Made by a program: the position numbers and the translations under genes | Assembly: GCA_002356515.1 (NCBI GenBank) | Contig: AP017605.1 | Span: 1,674,001 to 1,738,000, forward strand | DNA: 64,000 bases | From: Mesorhizobium loti | Lineage (GTDB): Bacteria; Pseudomonadota; Alphaproteobacteria; Rhizobiales; Rhizobiaceae | Direction: 5' to 3' | Shown here: piece after piece, positions 10,063 through 20,271 of the stretch | How positions within the stretch are numbered: the first letter of the stretch is position 1 | Layout: every line of letters begins with the position of its first letter | Notes under the pieces: generated by a model | Seen by the model: the letters and a program-made list of their open reading frames with translations, nothing else | Databases searched by the model: none | What the model was told of the DNA's origin: nothing

Positions 10063-10884
10063 TTACCAAAACCCCACCAGCGACCTCAGCATCGCGGCCG
10101 GGCCAACCGCCTCGCGGCACGTCTCACGAAACCCGGCCCGTCCTGTTGCATCGAGCACATCGTCGTCGATGGCGCGCAGGATGGTGCTCGCGTTGCGCCA
10201 GCCGATCCTGACCAGCGCCGATGTCAGCTCGGCGCGCGCCGGATCGAAGGCCTTTTCATTCGTCGCGCTTTCGGCGGGATCAAAGTCATTACTCGCGCCG
10301 AGTTTGTGCCTGGGAATCGCCACCTCGCTGCGAACGTCGAAAGGACTGACACAGCCGAGGAAATCAGAGATCAGATAAAGCGACGTGGCCGGCGCCGCGA
10401 CAAGCTGCTCATAGGCGACGAAATGCACAGGCGCGCCGGTGCGGCGAAGCGCATCCATGGCGAAATAGAACTGGTTCCAGTAATCGGCCGGCGAGCGGAA
10501 CCTGTATTCCATGCGCTTGGGCTCGGTGAAATCCTGCCTGACTTCGAACGGTTGCTCGAGGAACGAGCCGAGATTCCCGTTCGGCTTGAAAATCGTGTCG
10601 TTCCTGGCAAGGCGGAACCATGACAGGATCTGTGTGACCGGATCCTTGCTCATGACGACAATGGGCAAGCCCCCATGGTCGACCTCGCGCCCGCTCATGA
10701 GCGCCGGGAAGATTCCGTGTTTCCAGAATCCCTGATCGAAGACGACCGGGATTTCGAGGTAACGTTCGACGAGATGCTTGGCGAGATTGGTGCCGGATCG
10801 CGGCGTCCCCATCACCCGGACGGCATCAATGCCGAGCCGCTCCCGCGCTCCGCCAAGCGTCGACATGTTCACGATGCTTCCCAT
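10063..10884 (-). CDS. Sulfotransferase-like protein
   Basis: A 273-residue protein with a P-loop-like GTPRSGTN at residues 26-33, the 5'-phosphosulfate-binding motif of PAPS-dependent sulfotransferases, and a later MSKDPVTQILSW segment resembling the 3'-phosphate-binding region. It would transfer sulfate to a sugar or other hydroxyl group. Its start codon overlaps the stop of the glycosyltransferase gene by one base (TAATG), so the two are translationally coupled. The pairing suggests modification of a surface polysaccharide or glycolipid. A P-loop NTPase of other function is possible but less likely. Confidence 0.75.
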   Translation of the reverse strand: MGSIVNMSTLGGARERLGIDAVRVMGTPRSGTNLAKHLVERYLEIPVVFDQGFWKHGIFPALMSGREVDHGGLPIVVMSKDPVTQILSWFRLARNDTIFKPNGNLGSFLEQPFEVRQDFTEPKRMEYRFRSPADYWNQFYFAMDALRRTGAPVHFVAYEQLVAAPATSLYLISDFLGCVSPFDVRSEVAIPRHKLGASNDFDPAESATNEKAFDPARAELTSALVRIGWRNASTILRAIDDDVLDATGRAGFRETCREAVGPAAMLRSLVGFW

Positions 10885-12398
10885 TACGCCCTGCGAAAAA
10901 CGGGTTGATCGGCTACCAATGCGCCGGCCTGTCTGGCCGGCCCGGCCAGCACCGGATGCGGCCCGTAAATCCTGGGCGTCGGATCGTCTGAAGCGGTCTC
11001 TGCGACGGGGTCAAGTTCTGCGGCATGGTCGACTTCCGCGACATGGTCAATAGCCGCGACATGGTCGACAATGGTCGCGAAAAACGCGCGCTCGCGGATC
11101 GGGCGGTATCGCGTCGTGATGGTGTGGCGCAATTCGGCGAGCCACACCGGATCGGTGCAGGCCTTGGCGATTGCGGCACACCAGCCTTCGACGTCACGCG
11201 CGGGGATGGTCGGCATCAGGCCCTGCGTCGCCTCTGTCAGCGACGGCGCGTCCGAGATCAGCACCGGCAGCCCGAAATCGAGGCACTCGGCCGCCCCCAG
11301 GCCCCAGCCTTCGACCGCCGAGGGATAGACGCTGAATTCGGCGTCCCGGTAGAGTTCCGCCAGTTCCCGGTCGCTGAGGTTGGAGCGGAACTGGACATGC
11401 TCGGCAAGCTCGGGATGCTCAGCCATGAAGGCGGTAAGCTCTTCATACATCCAGCCCCACCGGCCGCACAGCACGAGCGTCGGCAGCCTGTCCCCCAGCA
11501 GCGGCAAAAGCCGGTGCCAGACCTTGAGCAGAAGGATGTGGTTTTTCCGGATCTCGATCGTCGAGCAGTAGAGGACGAATTTGCGGTTCCGGTTTTGCTT
11601 TACGACGGACATCTCCCGGTCGGTGACGCTTTCCCTCAGGAAGGCGCCGGGCGATGCAACCGCGACCTGGGGAATCCGGCGCAGGCCGGAGGCTTTCGCA
11701 TGACACTTCACCCTGTCGGCGGTGTATTTCGACACGCAGACGAGCAGCTGCGCATTTTCCAGCTGCCATGCCGTGTTGCGGACAAAACCGCGCGCGTGAT
11801 GCGGACCGACGAATTGCGGGAAGTCGATCGGAATGAGGTCGTGCATCAAGGTGAAGATGCCGCTTTTGGCTTTTCCCGTGAGCTTCTTGGCGGCGAACTC
11901 GTGCACGCTCGCACTGGACAGAAAGCAGATGACGTTTTCGTCTTTCAGCGGATCTCCGGTATCGAGCCTGCTTGGGCGGAGCGCCGACTTCACGATCTTG
12001 AAAAGCCGGATGGCCGTCTTGGACAGTTGGAACTTGAGCCCGCGCCGCTTCTCGGAACCCGAGAGGAAGATCGCCGCCACGCGATCGAACTCGCGCCCGC
12101 AGGCGAAGGGCGCCTCCCGCATGATCGACAGCACTTTCCACAGCCGCGCCAGATACGAGCTGCCCTCGCCGCCAACCGGCTGCGGCAGATCACCGTCGAC
12201 AAGCCGCTTCAGATAGCGAAGTTCGGTTTCATCGAGCCTCTGACCCTGCCCCCATGCGTCGACGATGAAGAAGCCGACCGGCGAGCCCTTCCATCGAAGC
12301 GCCTGGCGAATGAGCGCCGTTTCGACGCGCGGGATGCCCACTGGCGGATGCGGCCCCCAGCGAAACGGCAGGGACGCATCAATATACAGTTTTTTCAA
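10884..12398 (-). CDS. Glycosyltransferase, GT4/GT1-type
   Basis: A 504-residue retaining glycosyltransferase. The C-terminal nucleotide-sugar-binding half shows LPTLVLCGRWGW, then FRSNLSDRELAELYRDAEFSVYPS followed by EGWGLGAAECLDFGLPV, the EX7E-like motif of the GT4 family. The N-terminus begins KKLYIDASLPFRWG. The start is a TTG, with GAGGT about 8 bases upstream. The last ~50 residues contain a repeated IDHVAEVDHAAELD pattern that looks like a low-complexity tail. It heads a two-gene operon with the sulfotransferase, under the palindrome-embedded promoter at 12550-12578. It probably works on a surface polysaccharide. Confidence 0.85.
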   Translation of the reverse strand: MKKLYIDASLPFRWGPHPPVGIPRVETALIRQALRWKGSPVGFFIVDAWGQGQRLDETELRYLKRLVDGDLPQPVGGEGSSYLARLWKVLSIMREAPFACGREFDRVAAIFLSGSEKRRGLKFQLSKTAIRLFKIVKSALRPSRLDTGDPLKDENVICFLSSASVHEFAAKKLTGKAKSGIFTLMHDLIPIDFPQFVGPHHARGFVRNTAWQLENAQLLVCVSKYTADRVKCHAKASGLRRIPQVAVASPGAFLRESVTDREMSVVKQNRNRKFVLYCSTIEIRKNHILLLKVWHRLLPLLGDRLPTLVLCGRWGWMYEELTAFMAEHPELAEHVQFRSNLSDRELAELYRDAEFSVYPSAVEGWGLGAAECLDFGLPVLISDAPSLTEATQGLMPTIPARDVEGWCAAIAKACTDPVWLAELRHTITTRYRPIRERAFFATIVDHVAAIDHVAEVDHAAELDPVAETASDDPTPRIYGPHPVLAGPARQAGALVADQPVFRRA

Positions 12399-12549: not shown

Positions 12550-12578
12550 TATCTACGTGGGAAATTTACCCACGTCAA
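12550..12578 (-). promoter_or_regulatory. Leftward promoter with embedded palindrome, copy A
   Basis: Read leftward, TTGACG (12573-12578) and TAGATA (12550-12555) are 17 bp apart, a plausible vegetative promoter about 150 bp before the glycosyltransferase TTG. The spacer is almost exactly the palindrome gtgggaaatttacccac (12557-12573 on +). A protein bound there would block RNA polymerase, so a repressor operator is likely. The motif recurs at 12596, 15063 and 15212. Confidence 0.6.
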
Positions 12579-12588
12579 GTACGCGCGG

Positions 12589-12617
12589 TTGACTTGTGGG
12601 TTATTTTCCCACACATT
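12589..12617 (+). promoter_or_regulatory. Palindromic operator copy B behind a rightward -35-like element
   Basis: The 17-bp palindrome gtgggttattttcccac (12596-12612) begins two bases after TTGACT (12589-12594), the same spacing as at copy D. The matching -10 (around cacatt) is weak and I find no convincing rightward gene. It may be an auxiliary operator for the leftward glycosyltransferase promoter, its centre 39 bp from copy A's, or the promoter of an unannotated small RNA. The rest of 12618-12830 shows nothing I can assign. Confidence 0.5.
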
Positions 12618-12834
12618 GAGTCAGTCAGCGACTGTAAGAGGAAAGGAAGCCAAGACATTCCATAGGATTCAGCGGACCGTCCGCCCCCCGCATGGTCCGC
12701 GGAAAGCAGCCGTACCAAAAAAGCTCATACCCCTACCCAACGAGCCCCGTACGGCTGTGCCGGCCGGTCCCGTCTATCGCAAAGGACGGACCGGCCGGAT
12801 TACCGCTCCCTCCACACGCTGGCACATCAATCGC

Positions 12835-13016
12835 TTCGTCATCCTGGGGCGGAGTAAGGAGCGCAGCGACGCGGCGCAGCCCCCAGGATCCATGCCGCGA
12901 CTTCGAAGCCTCGCCACGGTGCAGAATTCTGCTCCGCTGCACGCCACGGCTAAGGTCACGGAATGGATCCCAGGGTCTTCGCGACGGAACTGCGCTCCTG
13001 CTTCGCCCAGGGATGA
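12835..13016. repeat. Mesorhizobium-type palindromic intergenic repeat element
   Basis: The segment opens with tcatcctgggg (12839) and closes with the near-inverse cccagggatga (13006-13016). Inside, atcctggggc pairs with gcccccaggat (12841-12889), and a second imperfect hairpin spans about 12966-13014. Elements built this way, with ccaggatccatgccg-like blocks, are scattered through mesorhizobial intergenic DNA. Short open frames across it are not credible genes. Confidence 0.6.
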
Positions 13017-13053
13017 CGACGCGATGCGCGGCTTCCGGGAAACGATGAAGGCT

Positions 13054-14127
13054 CTAAGGCCCGCCAGGTCCACCAGGCCCACCGGGACCGCCAGGTCCAC
13101 CCGGCCCACCGGGGCCGCCCGGACCACCGCCGGGCGCGTCCGGCCCGCCCGGCCCAGGAGGCTGACCAGGCAGACCGGGTGACTTGGGCCCGGGCATGCC
13201 GGAGCGGTTTGGCCCGCCGGCACCGCGACCACGCGACGCCGACACAATATTGCCCTCGCGATCGAACCCGACCTCGATAAATGCCCTGACGACACCAGTC
13301 GATTTCTCATCGCCGTTCTGATTGTCGACGGCGACGCCAAGACCCGATTCCAGCCGCTGTCCGCGGCGCTGCAAAAACGTCTCGTAAAGAACATCGGCGA
13401 CATTGGCCTGCGGCACCGGCGCTTCCGCTTCCAGATGCACCACTTTGTATCCGCCCTTGGCCTTGGTGAGGGTCAGCTGAACGCGCCGATTTGCCAGCGG
13501 CGACGATCCGGGGCCGATCTTGAGCTGCCCGACCTGCAACGCACCTGAGCGCACCACCGCCAGGCCGCGAAGCTGATAGGTCTGCTGGTGCGGCCTGGCC
13601 TCCACCAGGCTGGCGACGATTTTCCCGTCGGGCCGGCGAATGCCGTGGACGGCCACGATATCGCCTACCCCGACCGTCAATCCCTCCGCTAGCTGGCTGG
13701 TGTCGACCTGCTGTCCCAGCACCCGCATCGAGCCGGCGGTCTTGCGCTCGACCGGTCCGACCACCTCACTGGTGACATGGATGGCTGAGGTCACGATGCG
13801 ATCGGCCTGTTGCACCACCGCGACGCGCACGACATGCCCGATCTTGAGGCTGTCCGGGGCGAGGCGGACGCCGTCGATCCAGACCGGCACGTCGGGCTGG
13901 TACTGAACCCGCACGCCGTTGACGAAAATGCTGCCGAAGCGCTGGATCGTTCCGACGATGCCGGTGCCGCCGATGCCCTGGTCGCCGTCGGTCCCTGCCG
14001 TCCAGCCGGTGCCGCCAATGCCCTGGTCTTTCGACGGTTCGGTCGCCCGCGCAAGCAGACTGAATAACACCGCCGGCACGGCGGCTGCGAGCGTTAGGAA
14101 ATCCCGTCTGGTCGGTCTCCCGCTCAT
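13054..14127 (-). CDS. Tat-exported DUF5666-domain protein with glycine-proline tail
   Basis: A 357-residue protein of unknown function. A twin-arginine signal (TRRDFL at residues 6-11) precedes a hydrophobic stretch, so export in folded form is expected. The heptad QGIGGTG occurs at residues 35-41 and again at 50-56. The middle holds at least two OB-like DUF5666 repeats (SIFVNGVRVQY; GDIVAVHGIRRPDGKIVAS). The last ~50 residues are Pro/Gly-rich and end in about seven GGP triplets, resembling a collagen-like or cell-wall tether segment. Its start overlaps the DUF6502 stop as ATGA, so the pair is one transcription unit. Confidence 0.82.
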   Translation of the reverse strand: MSGRPTRRDFLTLAAAVPAVLFSLLARATEPSKDQGIGGTGWTAGTDGDQGIGGTGIVGTIQRFGSIFVNGVRVQYQPDVPVWIDGVRLAPDSLKIGHVVRVAVVQQADRIVTSAIHVTSEVVGPVERKTAGSMRVLGQQVDTSQLAEGLTVGVGDIVAVHGIRRPDGKIVASLVEARPHQQTYQLRGLAVVRSGALQVGQLKIGPGSSPLANRRVQLTLTKAKGGYKVVHLEAEAPVPQANVADVLYETFLQRRGQRLESGLGVAVDNQNGDEKSTGVVRAFIEVGFDREGNIVSASRGRGAGGPNRSGMPGPKSPGLPGQPPGPGGPDAPGGGPGGPGGPGGPGGPGGPGGPGGP

Positions 14128-14993
14128 GCCGTCTCTCCGCCGGCACCCTTGTTTTCAGGCTTTTCCTCGGCAACCAGCGACGTGCCGTCGGAGGTGAGGA
14201 TATAGACACCCCAGTTCCACCGGCTGGTGCCGCCTGGATCGCTTTGAATGGCCTGGTTTGCGTATTTGTTCAGGCGCAGCAGCGTTTCGACCGCGATCTC
14301 GCGGCTGTAGGCCTCGAGCGACCTGGCCAGCTCTTCCGACAGCCCGTCATAGTGGACGGCGCGCTCGAGGAAGGGCGGCGCGTCGGCCAGGACGTTGTCG
14401 ACCGAGGCCGCCGCGTGATCCCCGAGATTGCGGGCAAAATAGTAGAGCCGGACCTCGCCGTCGCCGCGCGGCACCATTGCCCCTTCCATCAGCACGATCC
14501 GGTCCTTGCCGTCGATTTCGACCAGCTTCCGGTCGAGCCAGTCGTCGAGAACCGCGCGTGGCCTGAGATCGCGGGTCACCGATTCCACCAGGCCGGCAAA
14601 GGACGGCTCTCCCGCCTCGCTTGTCCGCGCCAGCGGTAACGGCACGCCCTTGGCGTCGACGAACTGCGGATCGGCGAGCCAGCGCGCGACGATGGCGCTC
14701 GTCCTGGAAACGGCATCGGGCACCACCCGCACCGGAGCGCCCGCCCCTCTCAGCCGGCTGACTTCCTTCCGGTGGACACCCGTCAGCAGGCTGACCCTGG
14801 AGTCGGTCTGCTGCTTGTCCGGCAAGGCGAATTCATGCTCCGCCACATTGACGTAGAGCTGGCGCAGCAGATCGACGAAGGCCGGAAAGGTTACGCCACA
14901 TTTGATGGCAAGCCGCACCAAAGGGCGAAGAACCCGGTTCAACGCGTTCTGGACCCCTGCGGCATCCAGATATTGTCCCGCCGATTTGCTCAT
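14124..14993 (-). CDS. DUF6502-family protein
   Basis: A 289-residue soluble protein matching the DUF6502 family as I recall it: an N-terminal helical region (NRVLRPLVRLAIKCGVTFPAFVDLLRQLY) with a helix-turn-helix look around SRVSLLTGVHRKEVSRLRG, and a C-terminal half containing VRLYYFARNLGDHAAA. The early helices suggest DNA or protein binding, but no function is established. It is translated together with the Tat-exported DUF5666 protein. Its promoter carries palindrome copy C, which links it to the MucR-like regulator and the glycosyltransferase operon. Confidence 0.78.
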   Translation of the reverse strand: MSKSAGQYLDAAGVQNALNRVLRPLVRLAIKCGVTFPAFVDLLRQLYVNVAEHEFALPDKQQTDSRVSLLTGVHRKEVSRLRGAGAPVRVVPDAVSRTSAIVARWLADPQFVDAKGVPLPLARTSEAGEPSFAGLVESVTRDLRPRAVLDDWLDRKLVEIDGKDRIVLMEGAMVPRGDGEVRLYYFARNLGDHAAASVDNVLADAPPFLERAVHYDGLSEELARSLEAYSREIAVETLLRLNKYANQAIQSDPGGTSRWNWGVYILTSDGTSLVAEEKPENKGAGGETA

Positions 14994-15052
14994 CGTCGTC
15001 CTTCACTTGCCAATCGTGAAATCGGTCATCCATCCCTCGGAAATTCCTGCCG

Positions 15053-15081
15053 AAAATAGCTTGTGGGAAATGCTTCCACAA
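15053..15081 (-). promoter_or_regulatory. Leftward promoter with embedded palindrome, copy C
   Basis: Read leftward, TTGTGG (15076-15081) and TATTTT (15053-15058) are separated by 17 bp, about 60 bp before the DUF6502 ATG. The palindrome gtgggaaatgcttccac (15063-15079) fills the spacer and overlaps the -35, the same arrangement as at copy A. It is flanked by cttgtgg/ccacaag arms. Confidence 0.6.
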
Positions 15082-15204
15082 GGGCACCCGCCAAAGAAGC
15101 GACATCGGCGGCCCTTCTGTTGCGTCAGTTCCGGTTGGCCGCATCCAGACGGGGAACGATGCTTCGACTTGGCCGAAATCATCCCGGGGCGAGTTTCACG
15201 CCAG

Positions 15205-15234
15205 TTGACACGTGTGAAATTTTCCCACAACTAT
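15205..15234 (+). promoter_or_regulatory. Rightward promoter with embedded palindrome, copy D
   Basis: A perfect TTGACA (15205-15210) precedes the palindrome gtgtgaaattttcccac (15212-15228); aactat (15229-15234) is a fair -10 at 18-bp spacing. The MucR-like gene starts about 50 bp downstream, so this is probably its promoter and the operator suggests feedback control. Copies C and D together make 14994-15282 a divergent control region. Confidence 0.6.
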
Positions 15235-15282: not shown

Positions 15283-15783
15283 TTGAAGAAGCCTTATGTC
15301 AGACCAACCATAGTCCGGGCCGGAGGAATTTTCGAAGAAACACCTGGTGAAGTCACCGGCGGTGCCAGCACATACGCCGGAAATGGAAAGCATATCGATC
15401 CCGTTATTTTGATAGCCGCCGATATTGTCTCGTCCTATGTCTCGAACAACCCGATTCCCGCCGCCGAACTGCCTGACTTCATCGGGAAAATCCACGCGTC
15501 GATTCGCAATATTTCGGATGGCGCTGCCGATGGTGGCCCAGACGAGATCCGATATGCCGTCCCCGTGAAGAAATCCGTCACCCCCGATTTCATCATCTGC
15601 CTGGAGGACGGCAAGCGTTTCAAATCGCTGAAACGGCATATCGAGACGAACTATGGCCTGACGCCGGACCAGTATCGCAAGAAGTGGAACCTGCCTTCCA
15701 ACTACCCGATGGTGGCGCCAAACTATTCCGCGACCCGCTCGAAACTCGCCAAATCCATGGGGCTAGGCCGCAAATCAAAATAG
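15283..15783 (+). CDS. Ros/MucR-family transcriptional regulator with degenerate zinc site
   Basis: A 166-residue DNA-binding protein. The C-terminal half carries the family hallmark (CLEDGKRFKSLKRH, then YPMVAPNYSATRSKLAKSMGLG). The N-terminal half, from DPVILIAADIVSSYVSNNP on, is the usual helical oligomerisation region, preceded by about 35 extra residues. Metal ligands read C106, D109, H119, but the residue usually His is N123, so zinc binding may be weak or absent, as in some M. loti homologues. The TTG start has AAGGAG seven bases upstream. MucR proteins control exopolysaccharide and motility genes in rhizobia; here the targets may include the neighbouring glycosyltransferase operon. 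Confidence 0.85.
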   Translation: MKKPYVRPTIVRAGGIFEETPGEVTGGASTYAGNGKHIDPVILIAADIVSSYVSNNPIPAAELPDFIGKIHASIRNISDGAADGGPDEIRYAVPVKKSVTPDFIICLEDGKRFKSLKRHIETNYGLTPDQYRKKWNLPSNYPMVAPNYSATRSKLAKSMGLGRKSK

Positions 15784-17697: not shown

Positions 17698-20271
17698 ATG
17701 GCGGGTTGGCATCGCTTTGCTTTTTGCGCTGCATTGCTGCTGGCGCTGCAGGCCGTCGTGCTGGCATGGCCGGCACGGGCCGATGACGCCAGGCCGTTGC
17801 GCGGCGTGGCGCTGGTCATCGGTGAATCGCAATACCGTTCCCTGCCCGCGCTTCCCAACCCGGCCAACGATGCGCGCGCCGTCGCCCAGCTTTTGACCAG
17901 CCTCGGCTTCGAGGTCAGCTCCATTCCCGATGGCGACGGGCCTCGCCTAGGGCGCGGCCTCAAGCATTTCGTCGAGGACGCGGCCGGCGCCGACGTCGCC
18001 CTGCTCTACTATTCCGGCCACGGCATCGAGGCCGGCGGCGAGAACTACCTGGCGCCGGTCGAAGCCGACGCCTCCTCGCTTGCCGATCCGGCGAACCGGC
18101 TGGTTCCGGTCTCCACTCTGCTGGCTGAACTCAAGGCCAGCGTGCCGGTGGCGATCGTGCTGCTCGACGCCTGCCGCTCCAACCCGTTTCCGCCTGACGC
18201 GACGCTGAACGCCCCATCAGGCCCGGCACCGTTGGCCGCCGCCGGGCTCGATCTCGCTCGGGGTGTCGCAGCCCTCGCCGATGCTGCCGATGCGCCGCAA
18301 AGTCTGGGCGAGGTCATCGGCTTTGCCGCCGCGCCTGGACGTGCGGCGCTGGACGGCGAGCCCGGCGGCAACAGTCCGTATGCCGCGGCCCTTTTGAAAC
18401 ATCTCGCGGCTGGCGGTTTCGCCTTCGGCGATGTCATGACAATGGTCACCGAGGAAGTCTACGTGAAGACCGGCGGCCGGCAATTGCCCTGGACGAACGC
18501 CAGCCTGCGGCGCCTGCTCTATTTCGGCCAGGCACCGGAAGAGACCGGCAGCGACGAGGCCTCGATCCGTTCCGCACGGCGCAAGCTCTTGCTGACCATC
18601 GCCGCCACGCCCGCCGAGCAGCGCTCGATGGTCGAAACGGTGGCGGCGCAAAATGAGGTGCCGCTCGACCAGCTCTACGGCATGCTCGGTGCCTTGCAGG
18701 TCGACACGTCGGCCGGTCCCGCCGATTTGCGGGCGCAGCTCGCCGCAGGCGCGCAGAAGTTGCGTGAGATCCTCGACCGCCACGATACCGAAACCCGGCA
18801 GGATCCGGAATTGATTCGGCTTTCCGGCCTTGCCGACCGCGCGCAATCGGAAGGCGCCATCCAGCTGGCGCTGACCTTCCGCGCCAAGGCGAGCGCTCGC
18901 GCCGAGGTGATCGACAAGCAACTCGATGAGGCAGAGGCCGATATCGGGCAGCGGCGGCTGGAGCTGGCTGATACTTTTGCCGACCATGCCCGCACGGCGA
19001 TCCTGAATTTCGACTATCGCACAGCAGCAGAGCGCTACGAGGACGCCTTCCGCCAGGCCGAGCGCTGGGATCCGAAGACCGCCTTCATCTACAAGATCTT
19101 CGAGGGCGACGCGCTGACCGATCAGGGCATGATCAAGGGCGAGAACGCCGCGCTGTCGCAGGCGGTCGACGTCTACGAAGCGGCAAAGCTCCTGCCCGGG
19201 GTCACCGTCTTCACCGGCGGCCCGGCCGGCGTCGCCATCAACGAAGGCGTCACGCTGACAGCGCTGGCCGCGCGCGAAAACGGCACGGCGCGCGTCGAGC
19301 AGGCGATCAAGGTCTATGAGGACGCGCTAAAAACCTTCACCCGCAAGCGCACGCCGGCAATATGGGCCACCGTGCTGATCAATCTCGGCAACGCCTATGA
19401 CCTGATGGGACAGCGCGCCGGCGGCACGGTCTATTACGCCAAGGCCATGGATGCCTTCCGCCAGGCAACGAAGGTCTACACGAAGAAGACCAATCCCGAT
19501 GAATGGGCCGGGCTGCAGAACAACATCGGCAATGAATTCACCGCGCTTGGCGACTCCGGCGATGCCAGGAAGAGCTACGCGGCGGCGATCGATGCCTTCC
19601 ACGGCGCCCTCTCCGTGTGGACGCGCGACAAGGTACCGGTGCAATGGGCGATGGCGCTGGCCAACCTGGCCGTCGCCTTGCAGAGACTCGGCGAGATCGA
19701 GGGCGGCACGGAGAAACTGGAGGCATCGCGGGCCGCCTTCCAGGATGTGCTGGAGGTGCGCACCCGCCAGACCCAGCCGGTCGACTGGGCCAACACGCAG
19801 AACAATCTCGGCGCCGTGCTGCTGTCGCTTGGCCAGCGCGGCAAATGCCCGGACTGCTTCACCCAGGCGCTTGCCGCCCTCGACCAGGCGCATGAGGTGA
19901 TCACCCGCAGGCAGGACCCATTCACCTGGGCGACCATCACCTACAATCAGGGCCGCGCCTATCGCTTCATGGGCGACGCCGAAAACAGTGTGCCGCGCTA
20001 CCGCAAGGCGCTGGAGCAGATGGACCTCGCTCTAACGGAATTGACGCGCGAAAAATCGCCGGTCATCTGGGGCAAGACCCATTCGGTACGCGGCGAAATC
20101 CTGCTCGCCATCGGCACAAAGACCCATGACAAGGCCAGCTTGCTTGCGGCCCGCGACGCCTTCACCGCCGCCCGCGACATTTTTCGCGAGCAGCATTATT
20201 CCCCAGGCTTCGAAGGTTTCTACGAGAAGGAACTCGGCCTGGTGGACCAGCAGCTTGCCCTGGCGAAATAA
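17698..20271 (+). CDS. Secreted caspase-fold (peptidase C14) protein with TPR-like repeats
   Basis: An 857-residue protein. A signal peptide (hydrophobic residues 6-24, cleavage near PARA-DD) sends it to the periplasm or the outer face of the membrane. Residues 35-270 form a metacaspase-type domain: ALVIGESQY at the start, catalytic His108 in YYSGHGIE and Cys159 in LLDACRSNPF. From about residue 420 to the end the protein is helical with repeated W-A-x-x-x-x-N-x-G motifs (WATVLINLGNAYDLMG, WAGLQNNIGNEFTALG, WANTQNNLGAVLLSLG), typical TPR units. Similar proteins are frequent in rhizobia; substrates are unknown. It stands alone, divergent from the HerA-like ATPase gene. Confidence 0.87.
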   Translation: MAGWHRFAFCAALLLALQAVVLAWPARADDARPLRGVALVIGESQYRSLPALPNPANDARAVAQLLTSLGFEVSSIPDGDGPRLGRGLKHFVEDAAGADVALLYYSGHGIEAGGENYLAPVEADASSLADPANRLVPVSTLLAELKASVPVAIVLLDACRSNPFPPDATLNAPSGPAPLAAAGLDLARGVAALADAADAPQSLGEVIGFAAAPGRAALDGEPGGNSPYAAALLKHLAAGGFAFGDVMTMVTEEVYVKTGGRQLPWTNASLRRLLYFGQAPEETGSDEASIRSARRKLLLTIAATPAEQRSMVETVAAQNEVPLDQLYGMLGALQVDTSAGPADLRAQLAAGAQKLREILDRHDTETRQDPELIRLSGLADRAQSEGAIQLALTFRAKASARAEVIDKQLDEAEADIGQRRLELADTFADHARTAILNFDYRTAAERYEDAFRQAERWDPKTAFIYKIFEGDALTDQGMIKGENAALSQAVDVYEAAKLLPGVTVFTGGPAGVAINEGVTLTALAARENGTARVEQAIKVYEDALKTFTRKRTPAIWATVLINLGNAYDLMGQRAGGTVYYAKAMDAFRQATKVYTKKTNPDEWAGLQNNIGNEFTALGDSGDARKSYAAAIDAFHGALSVWTRDKVPVQWAMALANLAVALQRLGEIEGGTEKLEASRAAFQDVLEVRTRQTQPVDWANTQNNLGAVLLSLGQRGKCPDCFTQALAALDQAHEVITRRQDPFTWATITYNQGRAYRFMGDAENSVPRYRKALEQMDLALTELTREKSPVIWGKTHSVRGEILLAIGTKTHDKASLLAARDAFTAARDIFREQHYSPGFEGFYEKELGLVDQQLALAK

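Follow-up and report, generated by a model that had tools for sequence, protein, structure and literature searches.

Results

Four palindromes in the promoters of neighbouring units

We analysed a 64,000-nucleotide stretch of the Mesorhizobium loti genome (contig AP017605.1, positions 1,674,001 to 1,738,000; hereafter the window), in which copies of a 17-bp palindrome, GTGGGAAATTTTCCCAC, stand at four places, A to D, among units that encode a DUF6502 protein with an exported DUF5666 protein, a group-1 glycosyltransferase (GT) with a sulfotransferase-like protein, a MucR-like protein and a candidate small RNA (Table 1). All four copies claimed in a preliminary description of this DNA were recovered at their places, with 1, 2, 3 and 1 mismatches to GTGGGAAATTTTCCCAC for A, B, C and D respectively. 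Scanning the window gave 7 strand-hits against 0.05 expected, a number reached by 0 of 100 shuffles. Across the 8.45 Mb genome, allowing up to 3 mismatches, the A–D places were accompanied by 4 scattered single matches, and the reversed control pattern gave 5; the random spread that would have spoken against the preliminary description was thus not seen. A chance origin is ruled out by these two scans, and the motif is a local feature rather than a genome-wide repeat.

Table 1. Features of the module in the window, with related genes of five other Mesorhizobium loci
Feature	Position	Strand	Remarks
Site A (putative operator)	12557-12573	-	within GT promoter; -35 12578-12573, -10 12555-12550
Site B (putative operator)	12596-12612	+	3' of TTGACT 12589-12594, 5' of conserved RNA
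Site C (putative operator)	15063-15079	-	DUF6502-DUF5666 promoter; -35-like TTGTGG 15081-15076, -10-like TATTTT 15058-15053
Site D (putative operator)	15212-15228	+	3' of TTGACA 15205-15210, 5' of MucR-like gene
DUF6502 protein	14124..14993	-	PF20112, 106.1 bits (gathering score 27); proposed repressor
DUF5666 protein	13054..14127	-	34 bits; twin-arginine-type signal; overlaps DUF6502 gene by 4 bases
GT	10884..12398	-	PF00534; first gene downstream of site A
Sulfotransferase-like protein	10063..10884	-	PF00685, 23.3 bits (cut-off 22); overlaps GT gene
MucR-like (ROS/MUCR) protein	15283..15783	+	PF05443, 162.9 bits; TTG start by our reading; proposed target
Candidate small RNA	about 12624-12806	+	three-stem core 12665-12806, C-rich loops; predicted 5' end
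Second sulfotransferase-like genes	L009 1545-2351, L010 4421-5236, L011 4421-5239, L016 4375-5169, L023 2771-3529		

The settings of the sites were compared between the window and 14 of 15 Mesorhizobium loci, L015 being omitted. Site A follows CTTGAC, the usual alphaproteobacterial -35 sequence, and is followed by gTA; TTGAC directly adjoins it in 13 of 14 footprints and is replaced by ATGAC in L019. In the window, the minus-strand promoter at A reads TTGACG and TAGATA with a 17-base spacer, so that A fills the spacer as had been proposed. The same proposal failed for C, which is not a case of simple spacer filling because the palindrome overlaps the -35-like hexamer: on the minus strand TTGTGG is followed 17 bases on by TATTTT in 13 of 15 footprints, the exceptions being L017 and L022. 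At B, on the plus strand, the -35-like hexamer noted earlier belongs to a conserved TTGAC(t/a)T, with TTGAC two bases from the site in 13 of 14 footprints and ATGAC in L014. Site D, also on the plus strand, has TTGAC two bases away and a GTGTG left arm in 14 of 14; the promoter-like setting proposed for it holds for this -35 element and is poor at the -10, and we agree with the preliminary description that the -10 matches at both B and D are weak. Since most other bases flanking the sites vary, the footprints suggest that selection acts on the sites and the -35 elements.

The preference extends to the larger set of 143 sites (69 loci and the window), where TTGAC lies 0–3 bases away from 69 sites, about 0.9 being expected, at an offset of 0 in 38, 2 in 30 and 3 in 1. 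The best -10 hexamers for these are mediocre (1 matching at 5/6 positions, 21 at 4/6, 36 at 3/6 and 11 at 2/6). Among the spacers tried, 16–18 bases, 17 was the best fit where the -35 abuts the site. A strict sigma-70 scan found no promoter in either intergenic region.

Each site is tied to its own unit

Clustering of the motif upstream of orthologous genes, suggested earlier as a check, was found across Mesorhizobium and in wider loci, and lineages that lack a unit also lack the site of that unit. Locus L022 has A, B and C but neither D nor the divergent MucR-like gene; a 55% MucR relative lies about 6 kb from its DUF6502 gene. Locus L017 has no GT and neither A nor B, and retains the MucR-like gene, DUF6502, C and D; the RNA is also missing from its assembly, G329, where only two sites are present. 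In genome G396 the GT and site A are absent and the RNA is retained with B, C and D. These loss patterns pair A with the GT unit, B with the RNA, C with DUF6502-DUF5666 and D with the MucR-like gene. The joint absence of D and the divergent MucR-like gene suggests that this gene is a target. L017 and G329 are one assembly and were counted once, as were L022 and G359, which are apparently one assembly (same contig positions); further overlap between the genome samples is possible.

The motif follows DUF6502, not MucR

A search with the DUF6502 protein yielded 27 loci of named organisms, 15 from Mesorhizobium and 12 from elsewhere, and a site with at most 4 mismatches is present in all but one of them (L034). 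Within the genus, 26 of 146 genomes encode DUF6502, and 25 of these carry the motif at up to 2 mismatches (exception G329). Among the 120 DUF6502-negative genomes, 18 have one isolated site each and 30 match the reversed control; clustered sites are confined to DUF6502-positive genomes. GT matches of at least 65% identity occur in 24 of the 26 positive and 0 of the 120 negative genomes, the next matches listed having at most 38%. MucR family matches are found in all 146 genomes, including the 120 without DUF6502.

In a sample of 297 genomes of the order, DUF6502 was detected in 22 at E ≤ 0.001 and in 21 above the cut-off. A site with at most 1 mismatch is present in 12 of the 297, of which 11 are DUF6502-positive; in two, G067 and G045, site and gene lie on different contigs. 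In the twelfth, G037, the site is inside an open frame that we read as cytochrome b561. A further 20 genomes of the order with DUF6502 include 17 that match the motif with no more than 2 mismatches; the control matched once overall. No MucR-like match (E ≤ 1e-8) was found in the examined stretches around DUF6502 at any of the 12 non-Mesorhizobium loci, 11 of which carry sites. The motif follows DUF6502, not MucR. MucR was accordingly rejected as the regulator: the motif occurs elsewhere without a MucR-like neighbour, and MucR is present in 146 of 146 genomes, yet clusters are found only with DUF6502. Of the two candidates put forward earlier for a single dedicated repressor, the MucR-like and DUF6502 proteins, co-distribution leaves DUF6502.

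A separate palindrome, GTGGGGAATTTCCCCAC, recurs in G314, G326, G359 (two places) and G396, with two genomes lacking DUF6502; it may be the site of a different regulator.

Sites beyond Mesorhizobium

The best match within 370 bases 5' of DUF6502, at up to 4 mismatches, was sought in four sets of loci. Sites were found in 15/15 Mesorhizobium loci, 11/12 of other Hyphomicrobiales, 20/21 of the order sample and 9/18 of a Pseudomonadota sample drawn from 398 genomes, against shuffle means of 0.05–0.20. From the order sample two of 23 places were left out, L049 because it is the window and L057 because it falls below the cut-off, and six of 24 Pseudomonadota places were omitted as already counted. 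Distant DUF6502 members have variants of the same plan, for example ATGGGAAATTTTCCCAT, TTGGGTAAACTACCCAA and ATGTGTAAATTGCACAT. A looser palindrome class was found in 12/15, 12/12, 18/21 and 14/18 loci of the same sets, with 0.45, 0.40, 0.69 and 0.60 expected; no such variant lies upstream of DUF6502 in L103, L107, L108 and L114. In Rhizobium etli and R. leguminosarum no site was found upstream of DUF6502, and ATGGGAAATTTTCCCAT stands between DUF5666 and a small hypothetical gene.

Several of the wider loci repeat the arrangement of the window. A homologous GT gene is divergent from DUF6502, with operator-like sites between them, in Kaistia (L035), G225 and G130, and an annotated Methylocystis plasmid has the same GT/DUF6502 arrangement, with two further sites in front of a gene for an outer-membrane beta-barrel protein. 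A gene that we read by eye as coding for a GT fused to an ABC-2 exporter follows a site in Methylocapsa (L024) and Alsobacter (L033). Among the retrieved sites far from DUF6502, some lie near sulfatase (two genomes), GT or GDSL hydrolase genes; four (L140–L143) precede a frame read by eye as a small membrane protein. Because others lie near two-component, HlyD-type and methyltransferase genes, the envelope theme of the regulon is a tendency. On plasmid pMHb of Mesorhizobium huakuii 7653R (L200, 6916-7675) an unannotated stretch matches DUF6502 over 225 residues and is accompanied by a C-like site; it sits among transposase genes and is probably a decaying copy.

A conserved structured RNA behind site B

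The preliminary description named no product for the unit behind B, and a conserved structured RNA was found there. It was aligned from 14 sequences, the window and 13 of the 15 Mesorhizobium loci, which share an element of about 140–150 bases; L015, where the search pattern found one arm, and L017, which lacks B, were omitted. In the window the plus strand folds with z -5.34 relative to shuffles and the minus strand with z -1.20. Pairing in the consensus structure involves 94.0% of cells (92.2% in shuffles), and 8 pairs show double changes against 4.1 in shuffles, 0 of 500 of which reach 8; sliding the pair partners lowers pairing to at most 43%. On the plus strand G-U cells number 32 and A-C cells 16. 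A protein gene behind B was rejected, as no frame common to all loci was seen, although related frames occur in some, and as the structure points to an RNA.

A covariance model detected the RNA in 28 of the 146 genus genomes, among them 25 of the 26 with DUF6502 (E below 1e-19). Beyond Mesorhizobium the best match over 48 stretches had E 0.08. When 14 stretches behind far-off or downstream sites of other genomes were folded, L155 gave z -5.24 and five fell between -2.3 and -2.9. Rfam 15 gave no plus-strand match for the RNA even at E ≤ 5; the sole nearby match, to MIR820 on the other strand (12832-13023, 40.4 bits against a gathering score of 196), comes from a long imperfect inverted repeat downstream of the RNA that looks like a repeat element. 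No U-run terminator was found for the plus-strand RNA. A trial of RNA-target pairing was unspecific.

Proteins of the module and nearby genes

All 27 members of the DUF6502 alignment match PF20112. A weak structure model of DUF6502 places a helix-turn-helix-like region at residues 64-82 and weakly resembles DNA-binding domains of DeoR, IclR, MarR and DtxR type; no PDB sequence relative was better than E 0.26, and no DUF6502 was found in viral contigs. The fold model of DUF5666 was uninformative (pLDDT 36.9). A caspase-domain protein with TPR repeats is encoded near the module (window 17698-20271), and a related caspase region is found in a gene near DUF6502 of Methylocapsa (L024, 9635-11635). 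At five Mesorhizobium loci the MucR-like gene is adjoined by another sulfotransferase-like gene, 65–75% identical to that of the window, which shows no such second gene there.

Discussion

The best explanation overall, to which we give a probability of roughly 0.7, is that the DUF6502 protein encoded in the module has GTGGGAAATTTTCCCAC as its operator. Judging from the sequences, the best reading of DUF6502 is as a DNA-binding autorepressor of CTTGAC-type promoters that would serve a small envelope regulon, the sign of control being part of that reading. An autorepressor should have an operator in its own promoter, and site C and the upstream sites of related loci occupy this position. A DUF6502 dimer would bind GTGGG-N7-CCCAC, perhaps contacting DNA through its N-terminal helix-turn-helix region, and binding would block RNA polymerase. 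A block is the simplest mechanism because the sites lie against or across -35 elements of the CTTGAC type, at about normal spacing; a palindrome between the -35 and the -10 is in the classical position for a repressor. The units predicted to be controlled are the DUF6502-DUF5666 operon (C), the GT-sulfotransferase unit (A), the MucR-like regulator (D) and the small RNA (B), in support of the earlier idea of a local regulon that combines genes for surface glycans with that for DUF5666. Outside Mesorhizobium, DUF6502 and its operator would serve other envelope genes. The exported DUF5666 protein may, as a guess, contribute to the derepressing signal. The weakest step concerns the RNA, which, if expressed as predicted, would probably act on translation in trans; because its loops are C-rich, they suggest pairing with ribosome-binding sites.

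Several points limit the evidence. The upstream shuffles, for both the strict and the looser class, resample dinucleotides and ignore kinship; the looser class was defined post hoc, after the variant sequences had been seen; and one of the 18 'phylum' loci, L102, belongs to the window's own order. For the RNA, further pair types show no excess (25 against 25.1 in shuffles), three DUF6502-negative genomes (G375, G421 and G395) give marginal matches, and the covariance model was built from some of the species later searched with it.

Who reads the sites is the main point on which other explanations differ. The MucR-like protein, or the other MucR proteins of the genome, might bind the palindromes and repress all four units including its own: it is a known kind of DNA-binding regulator, its gene adjoins D, and most Mesorhizobium loci have inherited it along with the module. 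We consider this very unlikely, as the 120 genus genomes with MucR and without DUF6502 have no clustered sites, sites at 11 non-Mesorhizobium loci stand in stretches without a MucR-like match, and L022 keeps A, B and C with no MucR-like gene beside DUF6502, its relative being some 6 kb off. A third, unlinked regulator could instead read the sites, with DUF6502 only its regularly co-inherited target. DNA binding by DUF6502 is itself a prediction, and DUF6502 and DUF5666 travel together in most loci; however, the motif tracks DUF6502 across families and neighbourhoods, with at most stray matches in DUF6502-negative genomes, so every loss of DUF6502 would have to be matched by a loss of this regulator, which makes such a reading quite unlikely.

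The sign of control and the nature of the element behind B are the other points. MerR-type regulators bind in a promoter spacer lengthened to 19–20 bases, and DUF6502 might likewise activate, or both activate and repress, from the spacer, given that sites lie between -35 and -10-like elements and that the -10 is weak, as at activated promoters. This is unlikely in our view: with a -35 directly against the site, the -10-like hexamer is mostly at the normal 17-base spacer, among the 16–18 bases tried, so that there would be no stretched spacer to correct, and a site in the regulator's own promoter is commoner for repressors. It also seems doubtful that the element behind B is a terminator or repeat-like 3' end of the convergent DUF5666 unit, leaving B as a second operator for A. 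The element does lie just past DUF5666 on the other strand, the strong GC hairpin of its last stem could terminate transcription arriving from either direction, and the plus strand has no detected U-run terminator of its own. Set against this are the strand difference in folding (-5.34 and -1.20), the 32:16 ratio of G-U to A-C cells on the plus strand, the eight pairs that stay paired through double changes, the retention of the RNA and B in G396 although GT and A are lost, and the conserved TTGAC that B has for itself in 13 of 14 footprints.

If DUF6502 is the repressor, a domain of unknown function would become a regulator family with a predictable site, whose regulons could be read from genomes. 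In plant symbionts and other bacteria the family would be linked to surface structures that are glycosylated or sulfated, and there would be a new small RNA candidate whose synthesis should depend on DUF6502. A broader proposal, for which we see even odds, is that DUF6502 represents an undescribed transcription-factor family of the Pseudomonadota that recognises RTGGG-N7-CCCAY, or variants of it, as its own operator and directs the remodelling of the envelope and of surface glycans. In Mesorhizobium an undescribed small RNA and a MucR-like regulator would also be under its command, giving a circuit with a DNA and an RNA level of control.

Local autorepressors of the TetR, MarR and DeoR style have palindromic operators in their own and in neighbouring or divergent promoters. 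The module resembles them in the placement of its palindromes and perhaps, from a weak model, in the fold of DUF6502, but no such sequence family matches DUF6502, its operator recurs over a wide host range and one of its targets is an RNA. ROS/MucR proteins are regulators of rhizobial surface polysaccharides, and the module shares with those systems a MucR member and surface-glycan genes among the targets; unlike there, MucR does not track the motif and here seems to be under regulation itself. Some small RNAs of Alphaproteobacteria carry C-rich, anti-Shine-Dalgarno loops, and the RNA of the module is similarly intergenic, with three stem-loops and C-rich loops. It differs from them in matching no Rfam family on the plus strand and in being tied within the genus, apart from the three marginal matches, to the DUF6502 module.
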